Assembly (NCBI GenBank): GCA_903871235.1
Contig: CAIQGA010000081.1
Span: forward strand, 17,553 to 81,552
Direction: 5' to 3'
DNA: 64,000 nt
Source: an uncultured Chlorobiaceae bacterium
GTDB lineage: Bacteria > Bacteroidota > Chlorobiia > Chlorobiales > Chlorobiaceae
The translations under genes and the position numbers were made by a program. The notes under the pieces were generated by a model. That model was not told the DNA's origin. It did not search any database and saw only the letters and a list, made by a program, of their open reading frames with translations. Below are positions 9,727 through 32,195 of the stretch, in pieces (the first letter of the stretch is position 1; each line of letters begins with the position of its first letter).

Positions 9727-9933
9727 ATATTGACGGAAAGAAAATTGGTTCATCATAAAAAAAGAGCACGATTACGTTGAAGTAAGAGAAAGTTTTTTTG
9801 CGAAACAATGTATTTTAATCCAACAAAAAAAGTATCTCCAACAAAAAGACTATCTTGGGAGGGTCTGATGCTAGCAGCAAAGGAATATCTCCGGCGAGCT
9901 GGTCGATAATGGTATAATGACAAGGAGAGTGCA

Positions 9934-13254: not shown

Positions 13255-16200
13255 ATGATATCGATTACAGATCTGCTCGCCGAACTGGCTGCATTGGACA
13301 TTCAACTCCGGGTTGAAGATGGCTCGTTGCATTTCAATGCTCCTGAAGGTGTTTTTCATGATGAAATCCGTAAAAAAGTTCTGGCAGTAAAACCCGATTT
13401 GATTGCCTTTCTGCAACGGGAAAGCAGTGCCCCTGTCATCGATGAAGCACCGTTAACGGATACCGAATGCCACCTTGCTGCACTGTGGCGTGAATTTCTT
13501 AAATGCGACAAAATTAGAGCTAAAGACGATTTTTTCATCCTCGGAGGCCACAGCCTGCTCTTGATGCGCCTGGTTCTCAGAATTGAATCAGCAGGATTGG
13601 GGAAAATTGATCTTTCGCAGGCAATAAGCGCCAGAACTCTTGAAAAAATGGCAGGAGTGCTTGATAAGGCCGCCAATACACCACCTGCTCTGGATGTTTG
13701 TGCATCATCCCTGTCAGAATTGCCTGTATCGTCCACTCAGCCCCTCAACTCTCCACTCAACAGGATCAGCGATCCTTATCTCCGCGACAGTTCTCTTGCA
13801 CGGTTATGGCAAAGTGCTGCCGAGCGTTACAGTAAACTTCCTGCCATAGTCTATCGCAATGAAATCTTCACCTATCAGGAGCTTGATGGCTGGTCGTCAA
13901 CTCTCGCAGCCGCACTATTCGCTTCAGGAGTGAAAGAAGGCTCCACGGTCGCACTGGCTGCGACACGAAGCGCAGCATCAATTGCAGCCATCATTGCCAT
14001 ACTTAAATGTGGCGCAGTCTATCTCCCTCTGGATGACAAGATGCCCCACCTGCTGACAGAGGAGCTGTTGAAACTCTGTGATGCACACTGGATAATTGTC
14101 GATCAGGAAAGCCTCGAAAGGTATGCAAAGCTCAAGGAGATTCAACTCCTCGAACTCAACAAACTGAACACTCTTTCATCCGGTTCGATACTGCCGGAAA
14201 TTCCTGAACAATGTGGTCAGAAAGCAGCATACATCATGTTTACCTCGGGTTCAACAGGTGAACCAAAGGGAGTAATTATTCCCCACCGAGCAGTTGCCCG
14301 TCTTGCGCTCAACAAAAAAGTTATTGCACTTCAACCGGGTGACGGTATGGCGCAGACTGCTCCGCTTGCTTTTGATGCATCAACCCTTGAGATCTGGGCT
14401 ACACTATTGTCAGGAGCACGTCTGGTATTCATTGAAGAGAGCGTTCTCTTGCAACCGGAGAGACTGGGGAACTTCCTTGCCAAAAAAGGGGTCACCGCCA
14501 TGTGGCTGACCGCCTCACTTTTCAACCGGATTGCCGACCTCTCTGCGCAAGCCTTCGCTCCACTCCGGGTTCTCTTGACGGGGGGTGAAGTTTTAAGTCC
14601 CCATCATCTTAAAACCGTAATGACGGCCTGCCCTGATATCCAGATATTCAACGGCTACGGCCCTACCGAAAATACGACATTCACCACCCTCCATGCCATT
14701 ACAGCCGCTGATCTTGAAACTGGCTCTGTCCCTATTGGCCGTCCCATTGACAACACACAGGTCTATGTGCTTGACGAAGCCTTGCAACCCGCCAATATTG
14801 GTGTTATTGGTGAATTATACGCAGGCGGTGACGGCCTCGCGATCGGCTATGCCGGACGAAAGGATCTTACCGATCAGGCATTCCTCACGCTGCCCGACAG
14901 GCCAGAAAAACGAATCTACCGCACCGGTGATCTTGCCCGGTGGCGAATTGACGGCATCCTCGAATTTTGCGGTCGGAAAGACGGTCAAATCAAACTGCGC
15001 GGACATCGTATTGAAACCAGCGCAATAGAAAAAGTGCTTTCTGACTGCCCCGGGGTTAATGAGGCTGTGGTGATGGCTGATGGTGAAGGGGAATCAAGAG
15101 AGCTTGTCGCATTTGTCACCGCACAGCACCATGATGAAATGCTCTTGCGACACCACCTTGCCGAACGGCTCCCCATCTACATGATGCCAGCACGCTTTAT
15201 CTGGCTTGATGAGTTCAAAGTCAACAGCAACGGCAAAAAAGATCGTACGCTCCTCAGCAAGATGCTGACCGGAAACCAGGAAGAGATTCCTCTTTCATTC
15301 GGTCAGGAACGGCTCTGGATAGTACAGCAGATCATCCCCGACATACCACTCTATAATGTACCTCTTGCTTTTGCCATAGAAGGAGAGCTGGATTGTGCAG
15401 CACTCAACCGAGCCATTTTCGCTCTCGAAAAGCGCCACAAGGCACTCCGTTCTCTTATTCGTGCGGCAGACGATGCCAATCCGAACGTTCGTCATCAACT
15501 GCTGCCTCCCGGAGGTCTCGTACCCCATATCGTTGATCTCAGTTCATCCCAGTATCCGGAAGAGGCCGCGATGAGAACGATAGCTGTTGAAACAGTTCGT
15601 CCGTTCCGACTGGAATCTGAAATTCCTGCAAGAATCTTTCTCTTCAGACTTGGTCAACAGCAGTGGCGGTTTTTCATGGTCATCCACCATATTGCCTGTG
15701 ATGGATGGAGTTTAGACATTCTTCTGCATGATTTGGCAGCACTCTATGCCATTGAGAGGGGGACAACAGAGCGCCAGCTTTCACCCGTCAGGTACCGGTT
15801 TGCTGATTATGTTGCTATCCAAAAGAATTTTCTGAGAAGCAAGAATGGTCAACAAGTTCTGGATCGAAGATGCAAACGGTTGACTCCACCTCCGGAACCG
15901 CTCGATTTTCCGACCGACCATACTCGACCTCTGAATCGCAGTTATGCCGGCCAGACCCTTCACTTCCCTTTCAAGGCATCACTCAGCCAGGGTATTGACC
16001 AACTGGCACAAGATGCCGCCGTCACACCGTTTGTTCTCCTGCTGGCAATCGTCGAACTGCTCCTGTACCGCATTTCCGGTCACGGCAAAAACGGAAATTT
16101 TGCCGTAGGCGCTTTGTCGTCCGGTAGAGAGAGCACTGAGATGAGTGACCTCGTCGGTTTTTTTGTCAATACCGTGGTCATTCCCTGCCATATCAAGCCA

Positions 16201-18429
16201 GAGCAGACCTTTATTGAGCACCTGGCCTCAGTCAGCGAGGAGTGGCAGGCCGCACTCTCCGATCAGCAGTGCCCTTTCGCTCACCTTGTTGAGCGCATGA
16301 ATATGCCGAGAAATCTCTCCAGAAATCCACTCTTTGATGTTCTTGTGGTCTGGCAGGATATGCTTCCGGAAACCCCCGACCTGCCGGGGCTGAAAACCCG
16401 GTCGGTTAAAACCAGCCTGCCCTATGCAAAGTTTGACCTCTCATTCAACTTTGTGAAAAATGAAAAAACCATTGAACTTTTTCTTGAATTTTCAACAGAA
16501 CTTTTTGAAGAAGAGAGAATTGGCAGAATGGTTCAGCGATTCCAATCACTCCTCTCGGCTCTTGTTCACAATCCTCTTGAAATGGTTGCAGAGTTGGATA
16601 TCTGGATTCCAGGAGAGAAACATCAGGTCATTGAGGAGTTTAATAACACAACTCTTGCTCTGCCAACTCGCCGTGCCATAACAGAACCGTTTCTGGACGC
16701 ATCAATTCGTCACGCCGCTCTTTCAGCAGTGCTCTCTGAGGATGGTACCGTACAGAATTATCGCTCTTTTGCACGCCGGGCAGGAGCCATTGCCGCATTG
16801 CTTATAAAAAACGGCGTTCAGCGTGAAGACCATGTTGCCGTACTGCTGCCACGATCACCAGAAATGCTGGCCGCAATTTTTGGAATAATCATGGCGGGGG
16901 CAGTCTATGTCCCTCTTGATCCAACTCACCCTCCACTGCGTCTTTGCGAAACTCTGAAAGATCTTCAGCAACCCTTCGTGTTATGTGATCGACCACTGCC
17001 AGCAGAACTTGCTCTTTGCTGCCGTCCTGTCACTCTTCCGGATTCCAAGCAGGAAGCAGAACCGGTTTCACTTGCCTCTCCTGATGATCTGGCCTATATC
17101 ATCTTTACCTCCGGCTCAACCGGAAAACCCAAAGGGGTAATGATTGAGCATCACGCCGTACTTAACCGCATCCTCTGGATGCAAGAGACCTTTCCGATCG
17201 GGCCAGGAGATGTCGTTTTGCAGAAAACGCCGGTAACCTTCGACGTTTCGATCTGGGAACTTTTCTGGTGGTCATGGACTGGAGCAGCCATCGCCATGCT
17301 CAAACCGGGTGATGAAAAAAATCCGCAAGCATTGGCCGATGCTATTGAGCAACATCAAGTCACCATCATCCATTTTGTGCCATCAATGCTTGCCGTTTTC
17401 CTTGACACGATTGAGAGTGGTCGAGTTGACTGCGGTCGCATAGCAAGCCTGCGGCTTGTTTTTGTCAGTGGAGAAGCGCTTGACGCAACGGTTGTTGAAC
17501 GCTTCAACAGGCTCATTTTTAATCGTCACGGCACTGAGCTCCATAATCTCTATGGCCCTACGGAAGCGACTGTCGATGTAAGCTGGCAACCGGTTTCCCC
17601 ATGGCCAACAAAAACAGCTCCCTCCATCGGCCGTCCCATAGCCAACACCTTGATGTACATTCTTGATGAACAGCACCGGCCACTGCCAACTGGAATCTCC
17701 GGAGAAATAGCAATTGGTGGCGTGCAGGTGGCACGTGGTTATCTCAACCAGCCGGAACTCACCGCCGAACGTTTTATTGCCGACCCCTTCAACCCGAAAC
17801 TCCGGATGTATCTTACCGGTGACCTTGGTCGATGGACAAATGACGGAAAAATTGAATACCTCGGACGCTCGGACTGGCAGGTAAAAATTCGCGGCCAGCG
17901 TGTTGAGCCCGGTGAAATCGAACAGACGCTTGAGCATCACGGCCAAATCACTCGGGCCATCGTTGTTGCAGCAGAAAACCAGGGGCTGACCGAACTTCAT
18001 GCCTGGATACAAAGTGAAGTAACCCTTGACAGAGCAGCTCTTCGGAATTTCCTCAGGGAGCGCCTTCCTGAAAGTATGATCCCTGCACGGTTTTTTCCGA
18101 TTAAAGAGCTTCCTCAAACTGCAAGCGGAAAACTTGACCGTCAACTGCTTGCAAAGCAATCACAAGCAATTCTTGCAGCACCCTCAGACCGCAGACCAGG
18201 GAAAGGTGATCATAAAGAGGTCGCCCTGACCTCCGGCTTTACGCTTGACGAAGCAACTGAAAGCCTGAAACTCACTCTTTGCTTCAATACAGCAATGATC
18301 TCCGCGTATGATTCGGAGACTCTCGCAAGAAGGTATGTCGACACACTTCAGGAGATAGTCAATCAAGCTTCTGATTCAGAGGCTCCTGGAAAGATTAATT
18401 GTACCGCTCAACAGAACCGTCGCACATGA
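13255..18429 (+). CDS. NRPS: TubC-like docking - T - A - C - A(Ser) - short C-like tail
   Basis: N-term MISITDLLAELAALDIQLRVEDGSLHFNAPEGV (TubC_N-like); DDFFILGGHSLLLMR (T); IMFTSGSTGEPKG (A); HHIACDG (C); IIFTSGSTGKPKG (A). No LGG[HD]S after either A domain. Confidence 0.93.
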   Translation: MISITDLLAELAALDIQLRVEDGSLHFNAPEGVFHDEIRKKVLAVKPDLIAFLQRESSAPVIDEAPLTDTECHLAALWREFLKCDKIRAKDDFFILGGHSLLLMRLVLRIESAGLGKIDLSQAISARTLEKMAGVLDKAANTPPALDVCASSLSELPVSSTQPLNSPLNRISDPYLRDSSLARLWQSAAERYSKLPAIVYRNEIFTYQELDGWSSTLAAALFASGVKEGSTVALAATRSAASIAAIIAILKCGAVYLPLDDKMPHLLTEELLKLCDAHWIIVDQESLERYAKLKEIQLLELNKLNTLSSGSILPEIPEQCGQKAAYIMFTSGSTGEPKGVIIPHRAVARLALNKKVIALQPGDGMAQTAPLAFDASTLEIWATLLSGARLVFIEESVLLQPERLGNFLAKKGVTAMWLTASLFNRIADLSAQAFAPLRVLLTGGEVLSPHHLKTVMTACPDIQIFNGYGPTENTTFTTLHAITAADLETGSVPIGRPIDNTQVYVLDEALQPANIGVIGELYAGGDGLAIGYAGRKDLTDQAFLTLPDRPEKRIYRTGDLARWRIDGILEFCGRKDGQIKLRGHRIETSAIEKVLSDCPGVNEAVVMADGEGESRELVAFVTAQHHDEMLLRHHLAERLPIYMMPARFIWLDEFKVNSNGKKDRTLLSKMLTGNQEEIPLSFGQERLWIVQQIIPDIPLYNVPLAFAIEGELDCAALNRAIFALEKRHKALRSLIRAADDANPNVRHQLLPPGGLVPHIVDLSSSQYPEEAAMRTIAVETVRPFRLESEIPARIFLFRLGQQQWRFFMVIHHIACDGWSLDILLHDLAALYAIERGTTERQLSPVRYRFADYVAIQKNFLRSKNGQQVLDRRCKRLTPPPEPLDFPTDHTRPLNRSYAGQTLHFPFKASLSQGIDQLAQDAAVTPFVLLLAIVELLLYRISGHGKNGNFAVGALSSGRESTEMSDLVGFFVNTVVIPCHIKPEQTFIEHLASVSEEWQAALSDQQCPFAHLVERMNMPRNLSRNPLFDVLVVWQDMLPETPDLPGLKTRSVKTSLPYAKFDLSFNFVKNEKTIELFLEFSTELFEEERIGRMVQRFQSLLSALVHNPLEMVAELDIWIPGEKHQVIEEFNNTTLALPTRRAITEPFLDASIRHAALSAVLSEDGTVQNYRSFARRAGAIAALLIKNGVQREDHVAVLLPRSPEMLAAIFGIIMAGAVYVPLDPTHPPLRLCETLKDLQQPFVLCDRPLPAELALCCRPVTLPDSKQEAEPVSLASPDDLAYIIFTSGSTGKPKGVMIEHHAVLNRILWMQETFPIGPGDVVLQKTPVTFDVSIWELFWWSWTGAAIAMLKPGDEKNPQALADAIEQHQVTIIHFVPSMLAVFLDTIESGRVDCGRIASLRLVFVSGEALDATVVERFNRLIFNRHGTELHNLYGPTEATVDVSWQPVSPWPTKTAPSIGRPIANTLMYILDEQHRPLPTGISGEIAIGGVQVARGYLNQPELTAERFIADPFNPKLRMYLTGDLGRWTNDGKIEYLGRSDWQVKIRGQRVEPGEIEQTLEHHGQITRAIVVAAENQGLTELHAWIQSEVTLDRAALRNFLRERLPESMIPARFFPIKELPQTASGKLDRQLLAKQSQAILAAPSDRRPGKGDHKEVALTSGFTLDEATESLKLTLCFNTAMISAYDSETLARRYVDTLQEIVNQASDSEAPGKINCTAQQNRRT
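16650..18170 (+). other. Adenylation domain predicted to activate serine
   Basis: Residues read from FDVSIWELF, VTIIHFVPSML, LRLVFVSGEAL, HNLYGPTEATVDVS give DVWHFSLVDK, the standard Ser signature. Confidence 0.85.
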
Positions 18430-21400
18430 AAATCGCAGACTTTATTTTTGAGGATCCATCATCAGCCGTTGCATCCGGAGCTCTTAAAGCTGAATCGACG
18501 AGGGGTTCAGGCAACATTGCTTCACGTTTTTCAACCATCGCCGCACGTCATCCCTTGCGCACTGCGGTTGTTGATGAAGAGGACTCAATGACCTACAGAG
18601 AACTGGACGACCTTTCAGACCGAATAGCTCACCTCTTGCTTCATCAACAGCTTCAGCCGGAGAGCCGGGTTGGCATCATGATGGGACGAAGTCGCTTCTC
18701 TATTGCGGCTCTTTTCGGAATCATAAAAGCCGGTTGTGTCTATATCCCGATTGATCCAACACTTCCCCTCGAACGCCGTAACAGGCTTCTTTCAATTGCC
18801 AATGCAAAAGCACTCATTACCTCTGCCGACACTGCTGGCGACATGCAACGGCTGGAGTGGCTCAATTCCGGTCTGCAATTCAGCCTCACACTTGACTGTG
18901 ACAATGTTGACTCTCTGGTTGAAACGCCAGGAGAGCTGATGTCCACAGAACTTTGGGATCATATTGCCGGTGAGGCCGTCAATGACATTGACGCCGGGGG
19001 ATGGAAAAGCGCATTTACAGGACTTCCGATAACTCCATCGGCAATGGAAGCATTCGGCACAAATGCATACAATAAAATTGCACCCTGCCTCAAGCCGGGA
19101 GCCCGTGTACTGGAAATCGGCTGTGCATCCGGCTTTACCATGCGCCACACGGCTCCGCTTGCCGCATCGTATCTTGCCACTGACCTCTCAAGGCACAATG
19201 CCGAGCGGGTCGAAGTTATTGCAAGAAATCTTGGCCTTCAACAGGTTACCAGTCGTCAACTGGCTGCTCATGACATTGATATTCTGCCCGAAAAAAGTTT
19301 CGATCTCATTGTCATGAACAGCGTCATCGAAAGTTTTCCGGGCTATGGCTATCTTCGCAATGTGCTCGACAAGTCGGTAAACCTGCTGGCTCCGGGGGGA
19401 GCTTTGTTTCTCGGTAATCTGTGGGATCTTGAACGTCAGGAGATCTATCTGGCCGATCTCGCCAAATTTGCCAGAGAACACGCTGGCGAGGGTTATTCTA
19501 CCCGAAGTAATCTGAACGGCAGTTTTTTTGTCCCATTCGACTTTTTCCGTGACTGGGCTGCCCGGCGTCTTGAACGCCCATCTCTTAAGCGCTCACCAAT
19601 TGATGCTCCAGGCTTTGACCCGGCGCCCTACTCTTTTGACGTTCTTATCAGCTTTGACCAGCACGGCGAGGGAATCGCTTCAGATGAGAGAAAAACTCAC
19701 CTGCATCTTGACCGCAGAGCACTGCTTCCTGAGAACCCCGTTCAACCCCCGGCAGAGATCAGTGCATCTCACGCCGCATATATCATATTTACAAGCGGTT
19801 CAAGCGGACAACCAAAAGGAGTGCTTGTTGAACATGGATCAGTCATCAATCTGATCCATGCGATTGAAGAAGAAATCTATACACCGCTCAAAGCCAGGAT
19901 TAAAGCTGAGTTCCTGAACATCAGTTGCTGTTTCTCTTTCTCCTTTGATGGCTCCATTCATCAAATCTTTACCCCCCTGCTCAATGGTCACACCCTTCAT
20001 CTGCCAAATGAGGAGACCCGGCAGGATCCTGAACGTTTACATAGCTTTTTTGAGTCGCACCAACTGCATGTCGTCGATGCCACACCAAGCCTTTTTACAC
20101 TCCTGCTCGATTATTGGCAGGAGAGAGGAATCGGCAGTTCAGCGATCTGTTTCATTCTCGGCGGTGAGACGTTCAGCACAAAGCTTCCAGAACGGTTGTA
20201 CGCTCTCCCGGGCACTCTCAACAGTGAGATATGGAATGCCTACGGACCGACAGAGAGTTGTGTGGCCGCCTGCCACTACAGGATGACTTCTGCCAACTGG
20301 CACGACATCTTACCACCACCGATCGGCATGCCTCTGTCGGGTATTGACATCAAACTCTGTGATGAGTCGGGCAGATTACTGCCAGTAGGGATACCCGGTC
20401 AAATCTTAATCGGGGGAGCGGGAGTTGCCCGTGAATACATCAACGAACCTGAACTGACAGCCCGTCACTTTCTCGTCGATGATGAGGGCAAACGATGGTA
20501 CTGTACCGGCGATATCGGTCGCTGGATTGAGCCCGGCCTCCTGCAATTCATGGGTCGGGAGGACCGGCAGGTCAAAGTACGCGGCTACCGTATTGAACTC
20601 TCTGAAATTGAGTCTGCGATGCTTGCCTCTCCTCTTGTTCGTCAAGTCGCCGTAGTTGTCGCAGATCCCCGTCAGGATGGAGACCGCATCCTGGTTGCCT
20701 GGGTTGTTGCAAACCCCGGTTTTGATGCCGTACGTTGCCGTGCTGATCTTGATCTGCTTCTCCCTGCATGGATGATGCCAACATTAATCGTTGAGATTGA
20801 TGAACTGCCCATCAACAGCAATGGCAAACTTGATGAGCACCGTCTGCCATCACTGCACAAAAAAGAGCTTTCGAATTCGAATGCCCGGATGCAAATCCCC
20901 TTTAGCCGGGATACAGAACGCAAGCTTGCTGAATTATGGCAGAAGCTTCTTGATGTGCCGATCAACTCTGTGGAGGATGATTTTTTTATGCTTGGAGGTC
21001 ACAGTGTTCTTGGAATACGGCTTGTTTCGCTCATTGAAACCGGGTTCGATGTAAAACTGCCTCTTGCCGAGCTTTTCAGCTCAACAACAATAGCCCGGAT
21101 GGCCGATCGGATAGAAGCAAAACAGGCCGCATGCAAATGGCATTCCCTGGTTGCTGTAAATCCCTGCGGTGAAAGAACACCTCTGGTCTGCTTTCATCCG
21201 GCGGGAGGCAATGTGCTTTGCTATAAAGCGCTTGCTGATGCTCTTGGCCGTGACTGGCCGATCTACATGGTTCAGGCCTCAGGACTTGAAGCCGGGCAGT
21301 CGCTGCAGCCATCCGTAGAATTGATGATTACAGAATATCTGCCTGAATTACAGGAGATAATCCGGGATCGGCCGATCATACTGCTTGGATGGAGCTTTGG

Positions 21401-21950
21401 TGGTTTGCTGGCTTGGGAGGCAGCAGAGCGGTTGCGAAAGTTCGGAACAACAATTGAAAGCGTCATTCTTCTTGACAGTGTAGCCTCGCACGATCCGATA
21501 CGAAGCATTCTGCAAAAAGATGAGGCTGACTTTATTGCCACGATGTTCGATGAAATGGGACTGGGAAGCGCTGAATATTTACGCACGCTCTCTCCTGACG
21601 AACGCCTCGACAGAATTATTCAGCATGAAAGCAGCAATGACTATCTGCCTGAAGGTCTTGATCGTCAGCATATGCGTCGTCTTCTTGCTCTTTTCCAGAA
21701 TAACGGTCTGGCTGCACTGCGTTACCAACCACGAAAAAGTGAGGAGCGGATACTCCTCATCCGACCTAAGCTTGCATCCGGCCAGGCACCGGGTATTGCT
21801 GGTGACGACTATAACGGCTGGGCCCGACTTTGCAGCAGTGGAATGGAATTATACTGGATCGATGGAACACACGGCCAGATGCTGATACCTCCTTTTGTTC
21901 AGCAGTTGGCAGACCATATTCGCAAATATACAGAGCAGATAAAGGGATGA
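18426..21950 (+). CDS. NRPS: A interrupted by methyltransferase - T - TE
   Basis: A2-like IIKAGCVYIPIDP, then SAM-methyltransferase motif VLEIGCASGFTMRHTAP, then A3 YIIFTSGSSGQPKG; T DDFFMLGGHSVLG; TE GWSFGGLLAWEAAERL. Supplied ORF starts at 18399; ATG at 18426 (ATGA overlap with upstream stop) is the likelier start. Confidence 0.92.
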   Translation: MKIADFIFEDPSSAVASGALKAESTRGSGNIASRFSTIAARHPLRTAVVDEEDSMTYRELDDLSDRIAHLLLHQQLQPESRVGIMMGRSRFSIAALFGIIKAGCVYIPIDPTLPLERRNRLLSIANAKALITSADTAGDMQRLEWLNSGLQFSLTLDCDNVDSLVETPGELMSTELWDHIAGEAVNDIDAGGWKSAFTGLPITPSAMEAFGTNAYNKIAPCLKPGARVLEIGCASGFTMRHTAPLAASYLATDLSRHNAERVEVIARNLGLQQVTSRQLAAHDIDILPEKSFDLIVMNSVIESFPGYGYLRNVLDKSVNLLAPGGALFLGNLWDLERQEIYLADLAKFAREHAGEGYSTRSNLNGSFFVPFDFFRDWAARRLERPSLKRSPIDAPGFDPAPYSFDVLISFDQHGEGIASDERKTHLHLDRRALLPENPVQPPAEISASHAAYIIFTSGSSGQPKGVLVEHGSVINLIHAIEEEIYTPLKARIKAEFLNISCCFSFSFDGSIHQIFTPLLNGHTLHLPNEETRQDPERLHSFFESHQLHVVDATPSLFTLLLDYWQERGIGSSAICFILGGETFSTKLPERLYALPGTLNSEIWNAYGPTESCVAACHYRMTSANWHDILPPPIGMPLSGIDIKLCDESGRLLPVGIPGQILIGGAGVAREYINEPELTARHFLVDDEGKRWYCTGDIGRWIEPGLLQFMGREDRQVKVRGYRIELSEIESAMLASPLVRQVAVVVADPRQDGDRILVAWVVANPGFDAVRCRADLDLLLPAWMMPTLIVEIDELPINSNGKLDEHRLPSLHKKELSNSNARMQIPFSRDTERKLAELWQKLLDVPINSVEDDFFMLGGHSVLGIRLVSLIETGFDVKLPLAELFSSTTIARMADRIEAKQAACKWHSLVAVNPCGERTPLVCFHPAGGNVLCYKALADALGRDWPIYMVQASGLEAGQSLQPSVELMITEYLPELQEIIRDRPIILLGWSFGGLLAWEAAERLRKFGTTIESVILLDSVASHDPIRSILQKDEADFIATMFDEMGLGSAEYLRTLSPDERLDRIIQHESSNDYLPEGLDRQHMRRLLALFQNNGLAALRYQPRKSEERILLIRPKLASGQAPGIAGDDYNGWARLCSSGMELYWIDGTHGQMLIPPFVQQLADHIRKYTEQIKG
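18930..19700 (+). other. Methyltransferase domain inserted between A2 and A3 motifs of the A domain
   Basis: ELWDHIAGEAVNDIDAGGWKSAF…LKPGARVLEIGCASGFTMRHTAPLAASYLATDLS…FDLIVMNSVIESFPGYGYL…LLAPGGALFLGNL, placed before TSGSSGQPKG. Confidence 0.85.
21140..21947 (+). other. Type I thioesterase (TE) domain
   Basis: TPLVCFHPAGGNVLCYKALADAL and GWSFGG nucleophile elbow. Confidence 0.9.
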
Positions 21951-22651
21951 ATATGCTTGATCGCCATACCATACGGCTATGGACACATGAGTTTCAGGAA
22001 GTAACAAGTTCTCCGCCACTGTGGCTTGCACTTCTTGATGAAAAAGAGCTGATGCATTGCAGGCAGTTCCGACAGGAAAAAGACCGTATTGCCTATGCGG
22101 CGGCACATGCCCTGCTCCGCACTGCACTCAGCCAAACGTTGGAGCTGCTGCCAGCATCCCTGATTATCGATCATGACAGGATGGGAAAACCTTTCCTCAA
22201 TATGCCTGGCTGCATGAGTATGGCTATCACACTCTCGCATACCTCGGGCATGGTTGCGGTAGCTCTCAGTCAGGCAGGAACTATCGGAGTCGATGTCGAG
22301 GCGATTGATCGCAAAAATATTCCTCATAATAATTTTTCAGCCTATGGTCTGAGTCATGAAGAGCAAGCAATGCTTGCATCGCTCTCTCTTCATGAACGCT
22401 GTGAAGCATTTATCGATTTATGGACAGCACGCGAAGCCGTAGCGAAGGCTGACGGACGGGGGCTTTCCCTCCCATTCTCTGACATAAAGATTGATCTCTC
22501 TATGAACAAAGCCACTATTCATGAAAAGGGGGCATCGCCCTCCTCTCAATGGACGCTGTGGCGAGAACAGCCCTCCCCTCTTTACCGACTGGCAATGGCC
22601 TGGCCGCAAGGAAAAGGAACATGCACAAGAATGAACGAACAACTTATTTGA
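21947..22651 (+). CDS. 4'-phosphopantetheinyl transferase, Sfp type
   Basis: LSHTSGMVAVALSQAGTIGVDVEAIDRK and FIDLWTAREAVAKADGRGL; ATGA overlap with upstream stop at 21947-21950. Confidence 0.92.
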   Translation: MNMLDRHTIRLWTHEFQEVTSSPPLWLALLDEKELMHCRQFRQEKDRIAYAAAHALLRTALSQTLELLPASLIIDHDRMGKPFLNMPGCMSMAITLSHTSGMVAVALSQAGTIGVDVEAIDRKNIPHNNFSAYGLSHEEQAMLASLSLHERCEAFIDLWTAREAVAKADGRGLSLPFSDIKIDLSMNKATIHEKGASPSSQWTLWREQPSPLYRLAMAWPQGKGTCTRMNEQLI

Positions 22652-22673: not shown

Positions 22674-25600
22674 ATGACGAATGAATCACACGAATTCTGG
22701 CGCACACTCCTTGCTGAGCTTCCTCCGCTACGGTTCTCTCAAGAGAGTTCAGGCATCTCATCAAGCGTTTCCACGAACGAACATATTGTCATTGAGCATC
22801 TGCTTGACAGCGTTCAAACCCGTCGTCTCAAGGCATTTGCTGAAACACATGGCATCACGTTCAGTTCGCTGCTTCTGGCGGTACATTTGAAAGTTTTATC
22901 AATGCAGATTCAGGACGGGCGATTCGTGACCGGTATAAAGATAAATGCTGCAGGGGAGGACAACCCGCTGCCTCTGGTTTTTGATGCTGTGGGCCATGAT
23001 GAAAGCTGGAGTAATCTTGCACGCCACATCTCTCTTCTCGAAGAGTCGAGTCGTCGACACAGCGAGGATATGACGCTTGATGAACTGGAAACTCTTTGTA
23101 CTCGCTCCCCACTCTTTGACACCCTTTTTTCTTTTGATCAGTGCATCCCGGAAAAGCCTGCAGAAAACCCTCAGAGTGCTCTTGAAAAGAGAATTCATGC
23201 ATTATGGCAAGCACTGCTGCCCGGCGCAGAGTTCAGTGTTCATGACGGATTTTTTGATGCAGGGGGCAATTCACTGCTGCTTGTTCGTCTGCATGAAAAG
23301 CTTGAAGCCCTTTGGCCCGGAGTCTTCAGTGTTGCCCGCCTCTTCTCAGTGACGACCATTGCCGCTCAGGCCCGCAGTATTCAGGAAAAAAACGAGACAA
23401 AAGAGCGCAATCACCCGCACACGACGCCGAATCGAGTAACAAAAACACACGGCCATATTGCAATCGTTGGCATTGGCATTTGTCTTCCCGGAGCATCGAC
23501 GCTGGAGGCATGCTGGCGAGATATCGCAAATGGTGTTGACAGAGTCTGCCCGATACCTGAGGAACGATGCAAAGAGAGCGTAGCCATGCTCAATGCCCTC
23601 GGGAGTCCGATCCCGGAACAGTTTCAGGAAGCCGCCTGGCTTGAGCAAATTTTCAATTTCGATCCCGAACGGTTTCGCCTTTCACCTGCGGATGCGGCCC
23701 TTGTTCACCCCGAGCAGAGGCATTTTCTTGAAACAGCGCTGATGGCCCTTGAAGATGCCGGTTATGGAGGCAAGTCGCTGGACAATGAAAAGATCGGAAC
23801 CTTTGCCGCAACAAGTCAAGGAGCGGTCTGGACCGATTATGCCCTGAGGGTACTGCCCGAGCGGGCCGAACAGCTCTTTATCAACAATGTACCCTCCAAT
23901 GTCGCTACCCGTCTCTCTTTTCTGCATAACTGGCGGGGACCGGCAACCCTTGTCGATACGGCATGTTCCTCTGCACTGACCGCCGTACATCTGGCCTGTC
24001 AGGCACTTGTCAACGGCGAATGCAGTGCCGCACTGGCCGGAGGCGCCCGATTAATGATGATACCTCATTCATCAACAGCACGCTTCACCATCGAATCATC
24101 AACTGCCAGAACCCATGCGTTTGACGAAAGTGCCGACGGTACCGGTTCAGGAGAGGGTGCAGTTGTCTTTTTACTGAAAACTCTTGAGCGGGCTAAAGCC
24201 GATGGAGATCCAGTGCACGCCGTGATTCGGGGAACAGCGATCAATCAGGACGGAGCTTCAACCGGCATGGCAGCTCCCAATCCGACAGCACAGTCAGAGG
24301 TAATTTCCGCCGCAGCAGCCAAAGCCGGCGTGCCGCTTTCCACCATCTCCTATATCGAGGCACATGGTACCGGCACCCATTTAGGCGATCCCGTAGAAAT
24401 CGAGGGTATTCGTCTTGCATTCAGCCGTGAAACCAGTGAAACCGGTTTTGCCTTGATCGGATCAGGAAAAGGTAATTATGGTCATCTTGACGCCTGTGCT
24501 GGTGCTCTTGGACTGCTTCGTGCGGTTCTCTGCGTAAAAAACGACCAGGCTCCGCCTCAGCCGTTCTTCAGTCAACCGAACCCCCGTATCGACTTTGCGC
24601 ATTCACCGGTAAACGTTTGCCGTCAACTGCTCTCTCTTCCTGACCGTGGCACGCCCCGACGCGCTGGCGTCAGTTCTTTCGGACTGAGCGGAATAAATGT
24701 TCACGCAATCATAGAAGCTCCGCCGCCGGTTATCAGTAAAGCGCTACCCCTCTATTCAGGATGGACGGTGATAGGGCTCTCTGCGGCAACTCCTGTATTA
24801 CTCCACACCTATTCTGCCGCTCTGGCTGAACAGATTCGAGAGAACCCCTCAGGCCCGCTTGCTGACATTGCCTATACCCTGAACAGCGGTCGCGACTCCC
24901 TTTCCGAACGGCTTGTATTCTGGGTTCGTGATCGAAAGGAACTGCTCGGCGCACTGGAAACTTTTCTTTGTGGCACAAAGGCTGAAAACAGCCTGACCGG
25001 CAGACTCGGGCGCCAGCAAAGATCGCTATCAACTGGGCAGATCAATGCTCTCGCGCCGGATGAACCTTCAGCCCGGATGGCGGCACACTCCTTTCTTGAG
25101 GGTGGGCAGCTCATCATGCCACCGGAACAGCACGCCAAACGCGTTCACCTTGCAACAACTCCCCTGCAGAGAATCAGGTGCCATCCTGATCCGAACAGAG
25201 AGAATGCCGTACACCCCATAAAACCAATACCTCTCCAGGTACCGATTGATACTCCTGAAGGAGTGCGTTATCCTCTCGATGTTCACGATCCTGCATTCTG
25301 GCCTGTCAGCGAACACAGACTCGGAGGGGTTCCGACCCTCGTCGGGATGGGGCTGTTACCTCTTCTTGCCGATACACTTGACACAAGCAGTGGAAAATTC
25401 CTGCCATTTGCCGTCAAGAAGATCTCCTGGCTGCGCCCTCTTCAGACCCCGTCGATCAAGGCGGGAAGTGTCAGCCTGCTCATCACGGACCCTGAAGCAA
25501 ATGAACAGCATGCAATACTTGGAGGAAAAACAGTCGACGGAGCCTGGAAAAATTTTGCAGAGGCAACCTTGTGCAAACTTCCTTGCGTACCGCCTCCGGC

Positions 25601-28600
25601 GCTCAATGCTGAAGAGTTACAAGAAAGAAGAGGTAAACTCTTTCCAACCAGTGTTCGCCTGAGTGAAGCGAATGGAGAGGTCAACGTCAGTAACAGATGG
25701 AACTGCCTTATTGCCAAAGGAGATAACGGCAATGAACTCACCGCTCAGCTTGAACGGCCCGATAACAATTTTGAGGGCAGAAATTTGCAGAACCTTCATC
25801 CCGGAGTTCTCGACACCGCTGTAAGCATTGTTCTGGATCGTGCCGGGCTGATACCGGCAAGTTGCGCCGAAGTGCTTCTCTGGCTGCCACTGCCCAAAAA
25901 AGTGTTTGTCTCTGCCATCCCGAACCCAATGGCAGATGGAGGAGTTACCGCCGATGTGAACATGTATGACATGGAGAGCGGTGCGCTCTGTATCTCACTT
26001 AAAAAGCTGCGTTTTATTGCTTCGGCAAAGAGCACGGAGATACAAAAAGAGAGGAAAAAAGTGACCGTGATACCCTCAATTCCTGTATGGGTCGCTGATC
26101 AGAAAGCAAGCACGAGTTTCTCTCCTCTTCCTGCGCTTGTTGTCATCGGTGAGGGCTATTTTTTCCAGAGGGTAACCGAGCACCCGATAGTCAAAAAAAG
26201 TCTTGTGGCATCGTGCAACTCAACAGCACTCACGGATGCGGTAACAAGAGCTATCGCTGACGGCATTGTACACCTCGTACTCTTTCTCCCTGCGCCGGGC
26301 GAAGATGCCGGGCTCCGCACCCTCGTCACCCTACGCACTCTTATAAAGAACATGCATCAACCCCTGCAGCTTCTGGCCGCAGGGTCGGGCGCCTATGCAA
26401 TGACAACCAACACAGGCTCTTTCATGACAACCCCCGACGCAGCACTTGTAGCAGGGCTTGTTAACGTCGCAGCATGTGAAGAGGCGATGCTTTCGACCAG
26501 GTATCTGGAACTGGAAAAAGATGCTCCGATTGAGGCTCTTCTTCAGGAAATCGAATCATGCAACGACCATACCCAATCACCGGTATTGATTGATCAATTC
26601 GGCAGACGCTTTAAGCGCAGCTTCGCTCCCCTTTCCGATTTTCCTGCACCGGCAGCAACACTCTGGCCGGGCTCTGGCTGTTGTGTCATCAGCGGCGGTA
26701 CCGGCGGACTCGCTCTGCTGCTCGCCGAGGAGCTTGCTTCCGGCGGCAGAGTATCGCTTGCACTGCTCTCCCGCCACCCTCTTGAACAGTGTAACGACAG
26801 TGACTCACAAAAACGTCTTGAACGACTGGAGTCGCTCAGCACGAAAGGCATTACGTTCCGCCACTGGTGCGTCGATATCAGTGACCTTGAACAACTCTCC
26901 GGTGTACTCAACGAAGTACGCAAGGTACTTGGCCCAATCACGGCAGTGGTTCACCATGCCGGTCTCGGTGAGAGTAGTCTTCTCATTAACGAAACCCCGG
27001 AATCGTTTGCAGCCTCAACTGCAGCCAAGGTGAATGGTGCACGCAATCTTGATCTGCTCACTCGCAACGACCCAATCGCAGCGTTCATTCTTGCAGGCTC
27101 GTTGAGCGCAGTTGAGTATCGTGCCGGAACAGGTGCCTATGCAGCAGCAAATCTCTTTCTTGATGCCTTTGCTCTCTGGCGGCTACGTGAGGAGCGGCCG
27201 GCACAGTGCATCGACTGGTGCCAGATCGGAGAAATCGGAATGGCGGCCAGAATTCTTTGTGGTAAATTGGACGAGTACAGTTTGACCCCCGAAGAGGTTG
27301 TCCTCCATTGGCGAACAGCACTTGCTTCAGGAGCACCTCAGGTTGCCCTGCTCTATGACGAAAAAACTGATAAGAAAACAGCGTCTGTACCAGCACCTTC
27401 AGAACAATCCAAAACACTCGAAAAGGCTCTGGCAGAGATTTGGGCAGAGATTCTCGGCTATGAAAGCATTGAATTCGATGACGACTTCTATGCTCTCGGA
27501 GGAGACTCGATGTCAGGAATCGATATTATTGATCGCATTATCGGGGGTCTCGGTCATCCGGTCACCTTCACCGATCTCGTTGAGTCCGGCACAGTCACGA
27601 TGCTGGCTGAAAGGCTGCGCCGCCAGGCTCAGACAGCCAACCCGCGCAACATCCAGCTCCCCACACCTGCCCCGAAAAACAGTCGCTATCCCCTGAGCTG
27701 GGAACAAATGGCCCTCATTCGAGCCCAGATGGCGGCAGAAAAGAGCATTGCCTATAACTTGCCGAACATGCTCTCCCTGCCACCCGACTGCAACCTGGAT
27801 CGACTTGCATTGGCTCTTGAGGCCCTCGTCAGGCGTCATGAAATCCTCCGCACCCGCTTTCATCTAAAAGAGAGCGAGGCGGAAATGGAAATACTCTCCG
27901 ACGTGCGGATGCAACTGAAACGCATCTGCCCTACAAATGGAATAACAGCCGATTTTTGTCGCAACTGGCCTCTTCCCTTTGACCTTGAAGCGGCTCCCCC
28001 GGTACGCTTCGAACTGGTCGAGAAAGCTGACGGCACACCGGAAGCCCTCCTTTTCGATATCCATCACAGCCTTGCCGATGGTCTCAGCCTTGAATTGCTC
28101 GCAAGCGATCTTGGTAACCTCTATGCAGGAAAAAACCTGCCTCCACTCGCCTTGCAGCTCAAGGATTACGCATGGTGGAGTCGCAAAGGGGCGGGAATCG
28201 CAGTTGTTGAGAGCGCAAAACGCTATTGGCTGGACCGTTTTTCGTTACCGCTGCCGGTGCTTGATCTGCCTTCTGATCGTCCTCGGCCGGCATTTCATAC
28301 GTGGCAGTGCGGCAGCGTTGCCTTCAGTCTGCCAAAGAAGAGTGTAGAGGCCTTGCGCCGATATGCTGCAACACACAGCACCACCCCCTTTACCGTCGTA
28401 CTCTCTGCATGGGCAGCACTGCTTGCCCGATATTGCCGTAATGAGGATCTGGTTATTTCCGTTCCGGTAGACACCAGGGAGAGTCTCGGCGCAACAGGAG
28501 TACCGGGCATGATGGTATCACTTCTACCGTTGCGATTTTCCTTCAACGATAACGAGTCGATAGAGGGTTTCATCAGAGGCGTCCATGCTGACCTTGCCGA

Positions 28601-31600
28601 TGCGATGCGCCACCGTGCGTGCCCACTCGGAATGCTGCTTGAAGCGCTTGCCCCACCGGCAGCGCCTGAGCGAACGCTGCTCTCTGAGGTGACCCTCTCA
28701 TACATGAACTATGCCGAAAGTAAAGGAGGCTCGCTTGACGATAAAGAGGCATTCCGTCTTACGGGTATCGAACGCAGCGATGGAAAGAACGATATCGCCA
28801 TCTTTATGCGAGATCTGCCCGATCAGATAAGCGTCGTCTGTGAATACTATTCCGCCATGTATGATCAAGAGCGCATTGAACGCATGGGAGAACACTTCAC
28901 CGTTCTGCTTGGTGCTCTGCTGGAATCGCAGCCCGACACGAAACTCTCCCTGCTTCCGTTGCTCACAGCGGAAGAAGAGAACTGGCTTGAAGGGGCTGGA
29001 AACGCCATGGATTATCAATTACAGCGCAGGGGAAATCTCTTTGCCCATTTCACAGCAACAGTAAAACAACAGAACAACTCCATTGCCGTCAGTGATAAAG
29101 AGGAGCGACTCAGCTTCAGCGATTTATGGTACCGTGCCGGCGGCATTGCAGAGTACCTCATTGAGACCGGTATTGGCGAAGGTGATATTGTCGCCCTGCA
29201 CATCGAACGAAGTTGTACTGCCGTCGCCACAATTCTTGGAATCAATTCGCTCGGAGCCTGTTATCTGCCTCTTGATCCATCGTATCCGCCGCGCCGTATT
29301 GCATGGATTCTTGCTGATGCACAGTGCCGGGTAGTGATTGCTGACGCAGCCGGTCGCAAGGCATTGGCAGAAGCCGCCTTGATAGATGATGCAGGATACG
29401 GCGCTGAGGGAGAGAGGCAGATAAAATATGTTACCATTGATGCAGAAAAAATGGCTCTACTCTGCAGCCCCCCTCCTGAAACAAACCGTCGGGATGACCT
29501 GCTTGCCTATCTTATGTACACCTCAGGCTCCACAGGTATACCGAAAGGGGTAAGGATATTCGAACACTCGATCATCCGCCTCGTCATGTATGACAACTCT
29601 ATAACATTCAAGCCAATCGACCGCATCCTTCAGGTTTCATCTTTTGCGTTTGATCTTTCAACCTATGACCTCTGGGGCGCGCTTCTCAGCGGGAGCCAGC
29701 TCTTCATTGCTGATCGTAACGACATTCTTGATCCGGCTACTCTCGCAGAAAAGCTGAAGCGACTGAACATCAGCATCCTGGCAATGCCTACCGGCCTCTT
29801 TCACCGGCAGGCAGAAGTAATGCCTGAAAGTTTTTCCACCCTCAGGGCGGTCATTGCCGGCGGAGAGGCCATGAGTGCGGAACTTATGCGCCGGGTCATG
29901 CAAGCCTCTCCTGAAACCGCATTTTTCAATGGTTACGGCCCAACTGAAAACACAACATTTACAACTATCCATAAAGTCTGTCATCAGGATCTGAAAAAAG
30001 AGAGTTTGCCTATCGGCCGTCCAATCCATCAAACCATAGTACGAGTGCTTGACAAGAATGATCAGATAGTTCCTGTCGGTATATGGGGTGAAATCGTAAC
30101 CGGCGGTGACGGGGTTGCAGATGGCTATCTGAACCGTCCGGAGAGGACGGTTGAGAATTTTTTTTATGGAGAGGACGGTATCTATTATTATCGGACAGGT
30201 GACCTGGGACGATGGAGACGGGATGGCATTCTTGAATTCGGAGGACGCAAGGATGGTCAAATCAAACTCAGAGGCTTCCGTATCGAACCGGGTGAAATTG
30301 AGGAGGCACTTTTACAACACCCGTCAGTTGCCGGAGCTGCAGTTCTCTTTCGGCGGGAAGCAGGAGAACTCATTGCCTGTTTACTTCCGAGGGATGAAAC
30401 ACTTGAAGCTACCGAACTTCGTTCCTGGCTTATGCATCGCATTCCATCCTATATGGTGCCTGCCCGCTTCATCAGGCTCACTCACCTGCCAGTTAATTCC
30501 AATGGCAAACTTGACCGCATCCAGCTCAATCTGGACGCGGATAACGGAGAGATCATAGCCGACAGTAATGCCTCGTCTGGAGGATTACCTTCAGGCAAAG
30601 CCGAACATATGGTCGCTGAGGTTTTTTCCGAAATCTTCCAACGTCCCGTAGAAGATCGCAACGTAAGTTTTCTTGACCTTGGCGGTCACAGCCTCATCAT
30701 CATCAAGGCAATCAACCGTATCGCCCAGCGTTCCGGCATCCGGCTCACCATAAACGACTTTTTTGCCACTCCCACCGTCGCCGGGCTTGCCTCATGCATT
30801 GAGACCGGCAAAAAAAATGATGCAGGAGAGTTCAGGATTCCCCGCGCTGCGGAAACCGCATTTCCTTTCGCGAGCCATGCTGAAGAGCGGCTCTATCTGG
30901 TAAACAGTCTTGATGCGACTTCCGCCGCCTACAATATGACCCTCTTTTTCCGGGCGGGCAGAGAGTTTATACCGGAAGCACTGCGGCAGGCCGTTCTTTC
31001 TCTTGTTGATCGTCACGAATCCCTGCGTACCGGGTTTGAGGAGTGCAACGGCGAAATAATCCGTCGAATTGAAAATACCAAATCCATTACCCTTTCATGG
31101 CAGGAAAATGACCTCAGCATGCTTTCCGACCCCTCTACCGAAGCGTTGAGGCTGACCAGAACAGAGGTTTCCCGGCCTTTCAACCTTTCGAGACCGCCGC
31201 TTCTCAGGGTAAGACTTATCCGTACAGGAGCAGAGCAGACACTCATACTCATCCTGACCCACCACATTGTTCATGACGGGTGGTCATCGAGAATATTTTT
31301 ACGGGAACTGGAACTTGCCTACAAGGCAGCATTGCAGGAAAAGAGAGCAACTTTACCACCGCTGCCGATAACTGTTCGCGACTATGCGGTCTGGCAACGT
31401 ACCCGTGACTGGTCGGATACCGCAATCTGGTGGAAAAATACCCTGAAGGGTGCTCCTGAACGAATCGAGCTCCCCTGCGATCGTCCCCTGCCTGAAATCC
31501 CCTCAAACAAGGGCGCCACTCTGAAAAAAGAGTTGCCGCAGGAGACCGCCAAAGCGCTTCAGCAGATTGCTTTACGGAACGGCGTGAGTATGGCTGCGCT

Positions 31601-32195
31601 GGGGCTGGCCATTTTTTCCGCCCTTCTCTTTCGTTTAACCCGCCAGAGCGAACTGATCATCGGCATGGGTGTTGCAGGACGCGACCACGCTGAACTGGAA
31701 GGTCTTATCGGTTTTTTTGTCAATGTTCTGCCCATCCGCGTCAAACTCGATCAGGAGAGTGAGTTTGACACCCTTCTAAACCTTGTTCACAAGACGCTTA
31801 TGGAAGCCCTCGAGCATCGTGATTATCCCTTCGACTGCCTGATTCAAGATCTGGCACCAAAACGTGCTGGAAACCGGCAGCCCCTTATCAATGTGGTCTT
31901 TGAGTACCAACGGTTTGAGCCGATCAACACGGCACTCATTTTTCCTTCGGCTCCGGATATCAGAGCCTCTTTTGCCCGTTCACTCGAAGAAGTAATTTAT
32001 ACAAAAACCGCCAAGCACGACTTAATCCTCTTTTATGTTGACCAGGAAGAAAAAACCGAGTTGATGATCGAATACGATACCGATATTCTCGATCCGCCAA
32101 CCATCGAACGATGGCTCTCCTATTTTATTCAATTAGCCCGCCATCTCTGCATCGAACATTCAGCAGCGGCTAGTTCCGGGAGTGAAGAGCAATGA
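22674..32195 (+). CDS. Hybrid NRPS/PKS: partial C - T - KS - (no AT) - DH - KR - T - C - A - T - C
   Basis: DGFFDAGGNSLL (T); KS VDTACSSALTAVH, EAHGTGTHLGDP, GNYGHLDACAG; DH FWPVSEHRLGGVP…LHPGVLDTA; KR ISGGTGGLALLLAEEL…GAYAAANLFLDA; T DDFYALGGDSM; C HHSLADG; A LMYTSGSTGIPKG; T FLDLGGHSLIII; C HHIVHDG. Confidence 0.93.
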   Translation: MTNESHEFWRTLLAELPPLRFSQESSGISSSVSTNEHIVIEHLLDSVQTRRLKAFAETHGITFSSLLLAVHLKVLSMQIQDGRFVTGIKINAAGEDNPLPLVFDAVGHDESWSNLARHISLLEESSRRHSEDMTLDELETLCTRSPLFDTLFSFDQCIPEKPAENPQSALEKRIHALWQALLPGAEFSVHDGFFDAGGNSLLLVRLHEKLEALWPGVFSVARLFSVTTIAAQARSIQEKNETKERNHPHTTPNRVTKTHGHIAIVGIGICLPGASTLEACWRDIANGVDRVCPIPEERCKESVAMLNALGSPIPEQFQEAAWLEQIFNFDPERFRLSPADAALVHPEQRHFLETALMALEDAGYGGKSLDNEKIGTFAATSQGAVWTDYALRVLPERAEQLFINNVPSNVATRLSFLHNWRGPATLVDTACSSALTAVHLACQALVNGECSAALAGGARLMMIPHSSTARFTIESSTARTHAFDESADGTGSGEGAVVFLLKTLERAKADGDPVHAVIRGTAINQDGASTGMAAPNPTAQSEVISAAAAKAGVPLSTISYIEAHGTGTHLGDPVEIEGIRLAFSRETSETGFALIGSGKGNYGHLDACAGALGLLRAVLCVKNDQAPPQPFFSQPNPRIDFAHSPVNVCRQLLSLPDRGTPRRAGVSSFGLSGINVHAIIEAPPPVISKALPLYSGWTVIGLSAATPVLLHTYSAALAEQIRENPSGPLADIAYTLNSGRDSLSERLVFWVRDRKELLGALETFLCGTKAENSLTGRLGRQQRSLSTGQINALAPDEPSARMAAHSFLEGGQLIMPPEQHAKRVHLATTPLQRIRCHPDPNRENAVHPIKPIPLQVPIDTPEGVRYPLDVHDPAFWPVSEHRLGGVPTLVGMGLLPLLADTLDTSSGKFLPFAVKKISWLRPLQTPSIKAGSVSLLITDPEANEQHAILGGKTVDGAWKNFAEATLCKLPCVPPPALNAEELQERRGKLFPTSVRLSEANGEVNVSNRWNCLIAKGDNGNELTAQLERPDNNFEGRNLQNLHPGVLDTAVSIVLDRAGLIPASCAEVLLWLPLPKKVFVSAIPNPMADGGVTADVNMYDMESGALCISLKKLRFIASAKSTEIQKERKKVTVIPSIPVWVADQKASTSFSPLPALVVIGEGYFFQRVTEHPIVKKSLVASCNSTALTDAVTRAIADGIVHLVLFLPAPGEDAGLRTLVTLRTLIKNMHQPLQLLAAGSGAYAMTTNTGSFMTTPDAALVAGLVNVAACEEAMLSTRYLELEKDAPIEALLQEIESCNDHTQSPVLIDQFGRRFKRSFAPLSDFPAPAATLWPGSGCCVISGGTGGLALLLAEELASGGRVSLALLSRHPLEQCNDSDSQKRLERLESLSTKGITFRHWCVDISDLEQLSGVLNEVRKVLGPITAVVHHAGLGESSLLINETPESFAASTAAKVNGARNLDLLTRNDPIAAFILAGSLSAVEYRAGTGAYAAANLFLDAFALWRLREERPAQCIDWCQIGEIGMAARILCGKLDEYSLTPEEVVLHWRTALASGAPQVALLYDEKTDKKTASVPAPSEQSKTLEKALAEIWAEILGYESIEFDDDFYALGGDSMSGIDIIDRIIGGLGHPVTFTDLVESGTVTMLAERLRRQAQTANPRNIQLPTPAPKNSRYPLSWEQMALIRAQMAAEKSIAYNLPNMLSLPPDCNLDRLALALEALVRRHEILRTRFHLKESEAEMEILSDVRMQLKRICPTNGITADFCRNWPLPFDLEAAPPVRFELVEKADGTPEALLFDIHHSLADGLSLELLASDLGNLYAGKNLPPLALQLKDYAWWSRKGAGIAVVESAKRYWLDRFSLPLPVLDLPSDRPRPAFHTWQCGSVAFSLPKKSVEALRRYAATHSTTPFTVVLSAWAALLARYCRNEDLVISVPVDTRESLGATGVPGMMVSLLPLRFSFNDNESIEGFIRGVHADLADAMRHRACPLGMLLEALAPPAAPERTLLSEVTLSYMNYAESKGGSLDDKEAFRLTGIERSDGKNDIAIFMRDLPDQISVVCEYYSAMYDQERIERMGEHFTVLLGALLESQPDTKLSLLPLLTAEEENWLEGAGNAMDYQLQRRGNLFAHFTATVKQQNNSIAVSDKEERLSFSDLWYRAGGIAEYLIETGIGEGDIVALHIERSCTAVATILGINSLGACYLPLDPSYPPRRIAWILADAQCRVVIADAAGRKALAEAALIDDAGYGAEGERQIKYVTIDAEKMALLCSPPPETNRRDDLLAYLMYTSGSTGIPKGVRIFEHSIIRLVMYDNSITFKPIDRILQVSSFAFDLSTYDLWGALLSGSQLFIADRNDILDPATLAEKLKRLNISILAMPTGLFHRQAEVMPESFSTLRAVIAGGEAMSAELMRRVMQASPETAFFNGYGPTENTTFTTIHKVCHQDLKKESLPIGRPIHQTIVRVLDKNDQIVPVGIWGEIVTGGDGVADGYLNRPERTVENFFYGEDGIYYYRTGDLGRWRRDGILEFGGRKDGQIKLRGFRIEPGEIEEALLQHPSVAGAAVLFRREAGELIACLLPRDETLEATELRSWLMHRIPSYMVPARFIRLTHLPVNSNGKLDRIQLNLDADNGEIIADSNASSGGLPSGKAEHMVAEVFSEIFQRPVEDRNVSFLDLGGHSLIIIKAINRIAQRSGIRLTINDFFATPTVAGLASCIETGKKNDAGEFRIPRAAETAFPFASHAEERLYLVNSLDATSAAYNMTLFFRAGREFIPEALRQAVLSLVDRHESLRTGFEECNGEIIRRIENTKSITLSWQENDLSMLSDPSTEALRLTRTEVSRPFNLSRPPLLRVRLIRTGAEQTLILILTHHIVHDGWSSRIFLRELELAYKAALQEKRATLPPLPITVRDYAVWQRTRDWSDTAIWWKNTLKGAPERIELPCDRPLPEIPSNKGATLKKELPQETAKALQQIALRNGVSMAALGLAIFSALLFRLTRQSELIIGMGVAGRDHAELEGLIGFFVNVLPIRVKLDQESEFDTLLNLVHKTLMEALEHRDYPFDCLIQDLAPKRAGNRQPLINVVFEYQRFEPINTALIFPSAPDIRASFARSLEEVIYTKTAKHDLILFYVDQEEKTELMIEYDTDILDPPTIERWLSYFIQLARHLCIEHSAAASSGSEEQ
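23440..24720 (+). other. Ketosynthase (KS) domain with intact catalytic motifs
   Basis: Cys in DTACSS, His in EAHGTGT, His in GNYGHLD. Confidence 0.93.

Follow-up and report, generated by a model that had tools for sequence, protein, structure and literature searches.

The g4 gene (13255-18429) of the 64,000-nucleotide stretch of DNA that was analyzed, referred to here as the window, encodes a protein of 1724 residues that Pfam resolves as TubC_N-T-A1(Val-like)-C-A2(Ser)-tail, in which neither A domain has directly after it the T that a canonical C-A-T module would have there. The window is from a Chlorobium genome, the genus of Chlorobium ferrooxidans DSM 13031 (L051), and the odd domain order is real and is kept across nine or more Chlorobium species. 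The genes g4, g5, g7, and g8 represent a thalassospiramide-type NRPS/PKS in rearranged form, and it is likely that they make up one line, acting in the order g8, g4, g7, g5, in which Ser would be loaded in trans and a split C-lobe would probably serve for docking.

Domain Order of g4 and Its Conservation in Chlorobium

The features of g4 are as follows.

13255..13425, + strand: TubC_N, a β-hairpin type N-terminal docking domain, directly before T (Pfam PF18563, 64 bits, above cut-off; kept in all homologues)
13456..13683, + strand: T, the sole carrier, upstream of A1 (Pfam PF00550; carrier tree)
13798..15264, + strand: A1, Val-like code DALWLGGTFK (Pfam, code, and motifs; in the tree, homologous to A1 of thalassospiramide-type lines)
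15274..16644, + strand: C, homologue of C2, HHIACDG intact (Pfam, C tree, and motif)
16678..18174, + strand: A2, Ser code DVWHFSLVDK, without a T after it (Pfam, tree, and code)
18235..18390, + strand: C-terminal tail, the last β-β-α of the C-lobe of a C domain, proposed half of a split docking element (hhalign, AF2, and dN/dS)

In residue numbers, TubC_N is located at 4-54, the one PP-binding domain at 74-135, and the one Condensation domain at 674-1124; there are two AMP-binding domains. The motifs are intact, including GGHSL of T (residue 97), HHIACDG of C (residue 811), and A3, A5, A7, A8, and the A10 lysine of both A domains. Only about 12 residues separate A10 of A1 (GKKDR) from the start of C, which leaves no room for a hidden T, and Pfam detects no PP-binding domain in the tail, which comprises about 95 residues past the A10 motif of A2. 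The preliminary description had read a T-A-C-A order with a sole carrier lying after the docking domain and ahead of the first A, and a first A running straight into C; the Pfam domains and the short A1-C gap bear it out on each of these points. It had also named two ways in which it could fail, a missed T domain and a sequence error, but a PF00550 scan gives one T only and the architecture is conserved across species, including an isolate genome; both are therefore rejected.

The architecture of g4 is present in eight other Chlorobium genomes at 61-93% identity, that of the isolate C. ferrooxidans DSM 13031 among them. Six of these copies are full length (two at 88-90% and four at 62-65% identity), and two are cut by contig ends, one at its start (93%) and the other at its end (61%). 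Recurrence of the layout over this range of identity shows that it reflects neither chance nor sequencing error. Where the other Chlorobium loci extend over g5 to g8, they have these genes in the same order. The catalytic domains of g4 have dN/dS ratios of about 0.13-0.3 (0.13-0.21 for A1, indicating strong purifying selection). The linker between T and A1, which is long and variable, has ratios of about 0.9-1.2 in the two closest pairs. A literature search that covered few subscription journals found no paper naming both C. ferrooxidans and nonribosomal peptides.

The window also contains, at 1-9726, a separate four-module NRPS (A-T-C-A-T-C-A-T-C-A-T with a reductase-like end), whose gene starts upstream, at about 14721 of contig C81; its homologues are frames of 4177-4230 residues in several Chlorobium genomes, including genomes without g4. 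In other Chlorobium (L113-L116), it is followed by a stand-alone protein of 410-440 residues with an HHxxxDA motif. This protein occurs in 9 of 65 genomes and is absent from the present one (site 9727-9933); it groups with the E-like domains that precede C domains resembling the second C of g8 in lines L080-L103. It was considered as a further member of the g4 line but rejected, being found in genomes without g4 and not in this one. A stand-alone condensation-like protein of the same genome (L012; 458-residue frame, minus strand of the short contig C172), beside an NTPase-like gene, has no visible link to the g4 cluster.

Relatives and the Proposed Assembly Line

Downstream of g4, the following features bear on the line.

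18426..21950, + strand: g5, the terminal module, with T and TE after an A domain that MT splits between motifs a2 and a3; its C ends g7 (domain analysis)
21830..22651, + strand: g6, a phosphopantetheinyl transferase between g5 and g7, with its true start probably later than 21830 (Pfam ACPS)
22674..23171, + strand: N-terminal C-lobe of g7, without N-lobe, HHxxxDG, or last segment; the piece proposed to pair with the g4 tail (hhalign; Pfam Condensation 193-278 of 456, below cut-off)
23181..23402, + strand: T1 of g7, proposed cognate carrier of A2 (nested among the T domains between A2 and KS, UFBoot 99)
23457..32162, + strand: KS-(DH-like)-KR-T-C-A-T-C of g7, in the order found in the relatives after A2-T (domain analysis)
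32192..36859, + strand: g8, C-A-T-C, proposed first subunit; its last C would be the C of the module with T and A1 of g4 (domain analysis and C tree)
36839..36856, + strand: C-terminal peptide RESGIL of g8, proposed SLiM partner of the g4 TubC_N (terminal motif in 19 of 559 ORFs)

The interruption of the g5 A domain lies between a2 and a3; the more usual site for a methyltransferase is between a8 and a9. The PKS module of g7 (23457-27638) contains KS, a KS-AT linker-like region, and KR, and its DH-like match is weak (PS-DH, E 0.2). Domain analysis found no acyltransferase in g7, and malonyl loading must therefore come from elsewhere.

The homologues recovered by a genome scan come from Thalassospira, Oceanibaculum, Fodinicurvata, Pleomorphomonas, Nitrospirillum, Desulfovibrio, and others. 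In the closest relatives, a single chain comprises the domains in the order C-A1-T-C-A2-T-KS-KR-T-C-A-T-C, and the gene that follows encodes A(MT)-T-TE; Thalassospira, Oceanibaculum, Pleomorphomonas, and Nitrospirillum keep this arrangement. Production of thalassospiramide is known for Thalassospira and Oceanibaculum; Fodinicurvata has the cluster but its product was undetected (PMC5577590). In the thalassospiramide line, Val and N-methyltyrosine are incorporated by the last two modules, which also form a 12-membered lactone by ring closure (PMC3705361). In the trees, each domain of g4, g7, and g5 groups with its thalassospiramide-type counterpart, and the order from the Ser-type A2 through T-KS-KR-T-C-A-T-C to a separate A(MT)-T-TE is recovered across g4, g7, and g5. 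In contrast, no single polypeptide of the Chlorobium line has a contiguous C-A1-T-C-A2-T: relative to the other lines, C1 and the T after A1 are absent, and A2 and its T are on separate proteins. The C trees identify the g4 C domain as C2 and give C1 no Chlorobium counterpart, and they cluster the last C of g8 with those C domains of L080-L103 that have an E-like domain before them. A product with an unsaturated 12-membered lactone is predicted from domain content only, and if the reading is correct, thalassospiramide-like protease inhibitors may be expected from anaerobic green sulfur bacteria.

The A-domain code positions were set from a GrsA fragment, and the residues assigned to the codes of A1 (Val-like) and A2 (Ser) are presumed from the general specificity code. 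The A1 code is also found in several Thalassospira and in Oceanibaculum and is identical or similar across Chlorobium and the relatives shown; the A2 code is the same in Chlorobium and in all but one of them. The remaining codes are DLYAIGGTFK (g7), DASTVAAVCK (g8), and DGHDIGAVAK (g5).

With respect to subunit order, g8 ends in a conserved motif, R-[EQ]-x-G-x-L, that also ends the upstream protein of the relatives. The terminal pattern [RE][EQR].G.[LI] is present in 19 of the 559 ORFs of at least 200 residues in all loci; seven are g8 homologues and the other twelve, from the relatives, are products of the gene ahead of the TubC_N megasynthase, and there are no others. SLiM/β-hairpin pairs are established docking elements (PMC9113145), and g4 carries TubC_N at the N terminus, as would a receiving protein. 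The RESGIL end of g8 and the TubC_N of g4 therefore suggest that the g8 peptide binds the g4 docking domain and place g8 before g4, which would make the terminal C of g8 the partner of the g4 T; the order of subunits is taken to be g8-g4-g7-g5.

In the line so arranged, module 1 would be C-A-T of g8 and module 2 the last C of g8 together with T-A1 of g4, the carrier lying ahead of its A domain; the chain would be handed from g8 to g4 through the C-terminal SLiM and TubC_N, and A1 would charge the upstream T across the long variable linker. Module 3 would consist of C-A2 of g4 and the T at the start of g7: A2 would load g7 T1 with Ser in trans, and the g4 C domain would join the chain to it, with g4 passing to g7 probably through the split C-lobe, to which the g4 tail would contribute the two strands and helix missing from g7. 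Modules 4 and 5 would be KS-DH-KR-T and C-A-T of g7, and module 6 the terminal C of g7 with A(MT)-T-TE of g5, so that the subunit junctions would fall inside modules. This reading is favored because the relatives keep A2-T-KS in one chain, because g7 T1 and the g5 T fall in the A2-carrier and TE-carrier clades, respectively, because the bookkeeping of A domains and carriers closes, and because the Ser code of A2 is common with the relatives and the code of A1 is identical or similar. It is further favored because the g8 terminal motif is otherwise confined to the protein before a TubC_N megasynthase, and because the g7 C-lobe piece (the body) and the g4 tail do not overlap, evolve alike, and co-occur in eight genomes.

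Junction of g4 with g7 and the Choice of Carriers

The first 166 residues of g7 match columns 223-394 of the 483 columns of a C-domain profile (hhalign probability 97.6, E 4.5e-12), and the g4 tail matches columns 417-459 (probability 42, E 2.6e-4), so that the two pieces cover adjacent columns without overlap. The preliminary description had likened the tail to the end of a C domain and to nothing else, and the comparison of profiles agrees: its hhalign score is 30.9, as compared with 10.8 ± 1.6 (maximum 16.6) for 60 column shuffles. The match is significant as a profile only, single-sequence scores being weak (about 5 bits), and the proposal that tail and body come from one parental class of C domain is unsupported because the tail scores are too weak. 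Solved C domains match the g7 piece, which has lost some C-lobe loops as well as the N-lobe and HHxxxDG and therefore cannot catalyze. An AF2 model of the g4 tail gives strand-strand-helix with a pLDDT of about 70; that of the g7 N terminus is poor (pLDDT 41.6, from an alignment of six sequences).

Identities of body and tail are alike from pair to pair (0.80/0.87, 0.80/0.75, 0.56/0.54, 0.40/0.38, and 0.49/0.45), and their dN/dS ratios of 0.24-0.49 (0.28-0.49 for the tail) indicate purifying selection on both at similar rates, well below the ratios of the T-A1 linker. Of 65 Chlorobium genomes, 8 have the g7 N terminus, and these are also the ones in which the C-terminal part of g4 is present; in the remaining genome with g4, the sequence stops at a contig edge. 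A search of 395 genomes of the phylum gave no other match to it save one to the carrier only; outside the phylum, the relatives listed were covered. Tail and C-lobe are proposed to complete one another and thereby link A2 with its carrier. Since A2 adjoins the start of the missing segment and T adjoins the end of the other piece, the reassembled lobe would join the end of A2 to the start of T, replacing the A-T linker, as far as geometry can be read from sequence.

A less probable, though not negligible, account is that both fragments are leftovers of recombination without a docking role, and that A2 reaches g7 T1 by direct A-T contact. The tail does evolve faster than the catalytic domains, and C-lobe fragments also end subunits in the Desulfovibrio lines L087 and L103. 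However, both Chlorobium fragments are in frame, under purifying selection, and co-occur in all eight genomes, their column coverage is adjacent and non-overlapping, and any stop codon could have removed a useless tail. In the two Desulfovibrio-type lines (L087, frame 6848, residues 5526-5713; L103, frame 20528, residues 580-770), the protein that precedes A(MT)-T-TE ends in a complete C domain and, right behind it, a C-lobe without N-lobe; this is a second subunit junction with a lone C-lobe.

The assignment of carriers comes from a maximum likelihood tree of 160 carriers with UFBoot support, with which FastTree agrees. T1 of g7 (about 23.18-23.40 kb) falls within the clade of carriers located after A2 and before KS (UFBoot 99), suggesting that the Ser carrier of A2 is this domain of g7. 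The g4 T groups at UFBoot 100 with the T of an A-less C-T module in Nitrospirillum amazonense (L060) and CTSoil_107 (L061), whose megasynthases start TubC_N-C-T-C1-A1-T-C2-A2-T-KS. Like g4, they have TubC_N, and one of their carriers is 51-58% identical to the g4 T; of their domains, the first C, C1, and the T that follows A1 have no equivalent in g4, which ends short of the last T. The tree thus indicates that the g4 T is descended from an A-less C-T module, and the grouping expected if it were the old carrier of A1 is absent, so that this origin is rejected. The count closes: the five A domains are matched by five amino-acid carriers, and the sixth carrier is for the polyketide unit. Because no other free carrier is left, A1 would have to use the upstream g4 T, giving a permuted T-A module.

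The g4 T and its relatives are, however, the sister group of the A2-carrier clade (UFBoot 99), and A2 might therefore also charge the g4 T. The stronger form of this idea, in which A2 loads it with Ser (or it takes up either residue), leaving A1 idle or active elsewhere, draws on the same sister relationship and on the proposal that thalassospiramide synthesis uses A domains from elsewhere in the pathway (PMC5577590). It is nevertheless unlikely, because the selection on A1 and its Val-like code, common with the relatives, are at odds with idleness, and because A1 would have no other free carrier.

The preliminary description correctly expected Ser, the residue indicated by the A2 code, to be loaded in trans on a carrier of another protein, but its choice of the g5 T (about 20.9-21.1 kb) is disfavored by the carrier tree, which groups that domain with carriers of TE modules (UFBoot 87). 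That g4 and g5 together form the last module would suit the position of g5, directly downstream of g4 with an ATGA overlap, and the resemblance of the tail to the end of a C domain, which normally precedes an A such as that of g5; yet g5 has its own A domain with an A10 lysine, and g7 T1 would be left without any A domain, which makes this arrangement improbable. That the synthetase is broken and decaying, as the lack of C1 and of a carrier after A1 relative to L060 and L061 might be taken to mean, is scarcely credible in view of the intact motifs of the window copy, the open frames of the other copies, the low catalytic-domain dN/dS, and conservation down to about 60% identity.

Relation to Known Systems

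It is quite possible, but far from assured, that g4 and g7 exemplify a new class of docking, in which a split C-lobe holds an A domain beside the carrier of another protein, together with a natural permuted T-A module. If so, the A-T pair, the tightest of the NRPS module, can be split and yet kept together through domain complementation, and a T-A order is workable; both would bear on the evolution of modules and on the choice of split sites by engineers.

The nearest known systems, the thalassospiramide-type NRPS/PKS of Thalassospira, Tistrella, and Oceanibaculum (PMC5577590, PMC3705361), have homologous domains in the same logical order, and in them, too, the protein before the TubC_N megasynthase ends in the motif seen at the g8 C terminus. 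The Chlorobium line differs in being cut into g8, g4, g7, and g5, with one carrier before A1 and a partial C-lobe before the Ser carrier. The proposed g8-g4 junction resembles described SLiM/TubC_N pairs (PMC9113145) in having TubC_N at the N terminus of one protein and a conserved charged peptide at the C terminus of the other. TubC_N-type domains are listed before C, E, Cy, TE, MT, reductase, and halogenase domains and are mainly at PCP/C junctions (PMC9113145), whereas the TubC_N of g4 precedes a T and the g8 peptide follows a C domain. Trans loading in syringomycin (SyrB1/SyrE) and albicidin synthesis (PMC8949500) likewise involves an A domain on one protein that serves another, but there a stand-alone A-T delivers the residue, whereas in Chlorobium a T-less A domain would charge the carrier that starts the next acting subunit.
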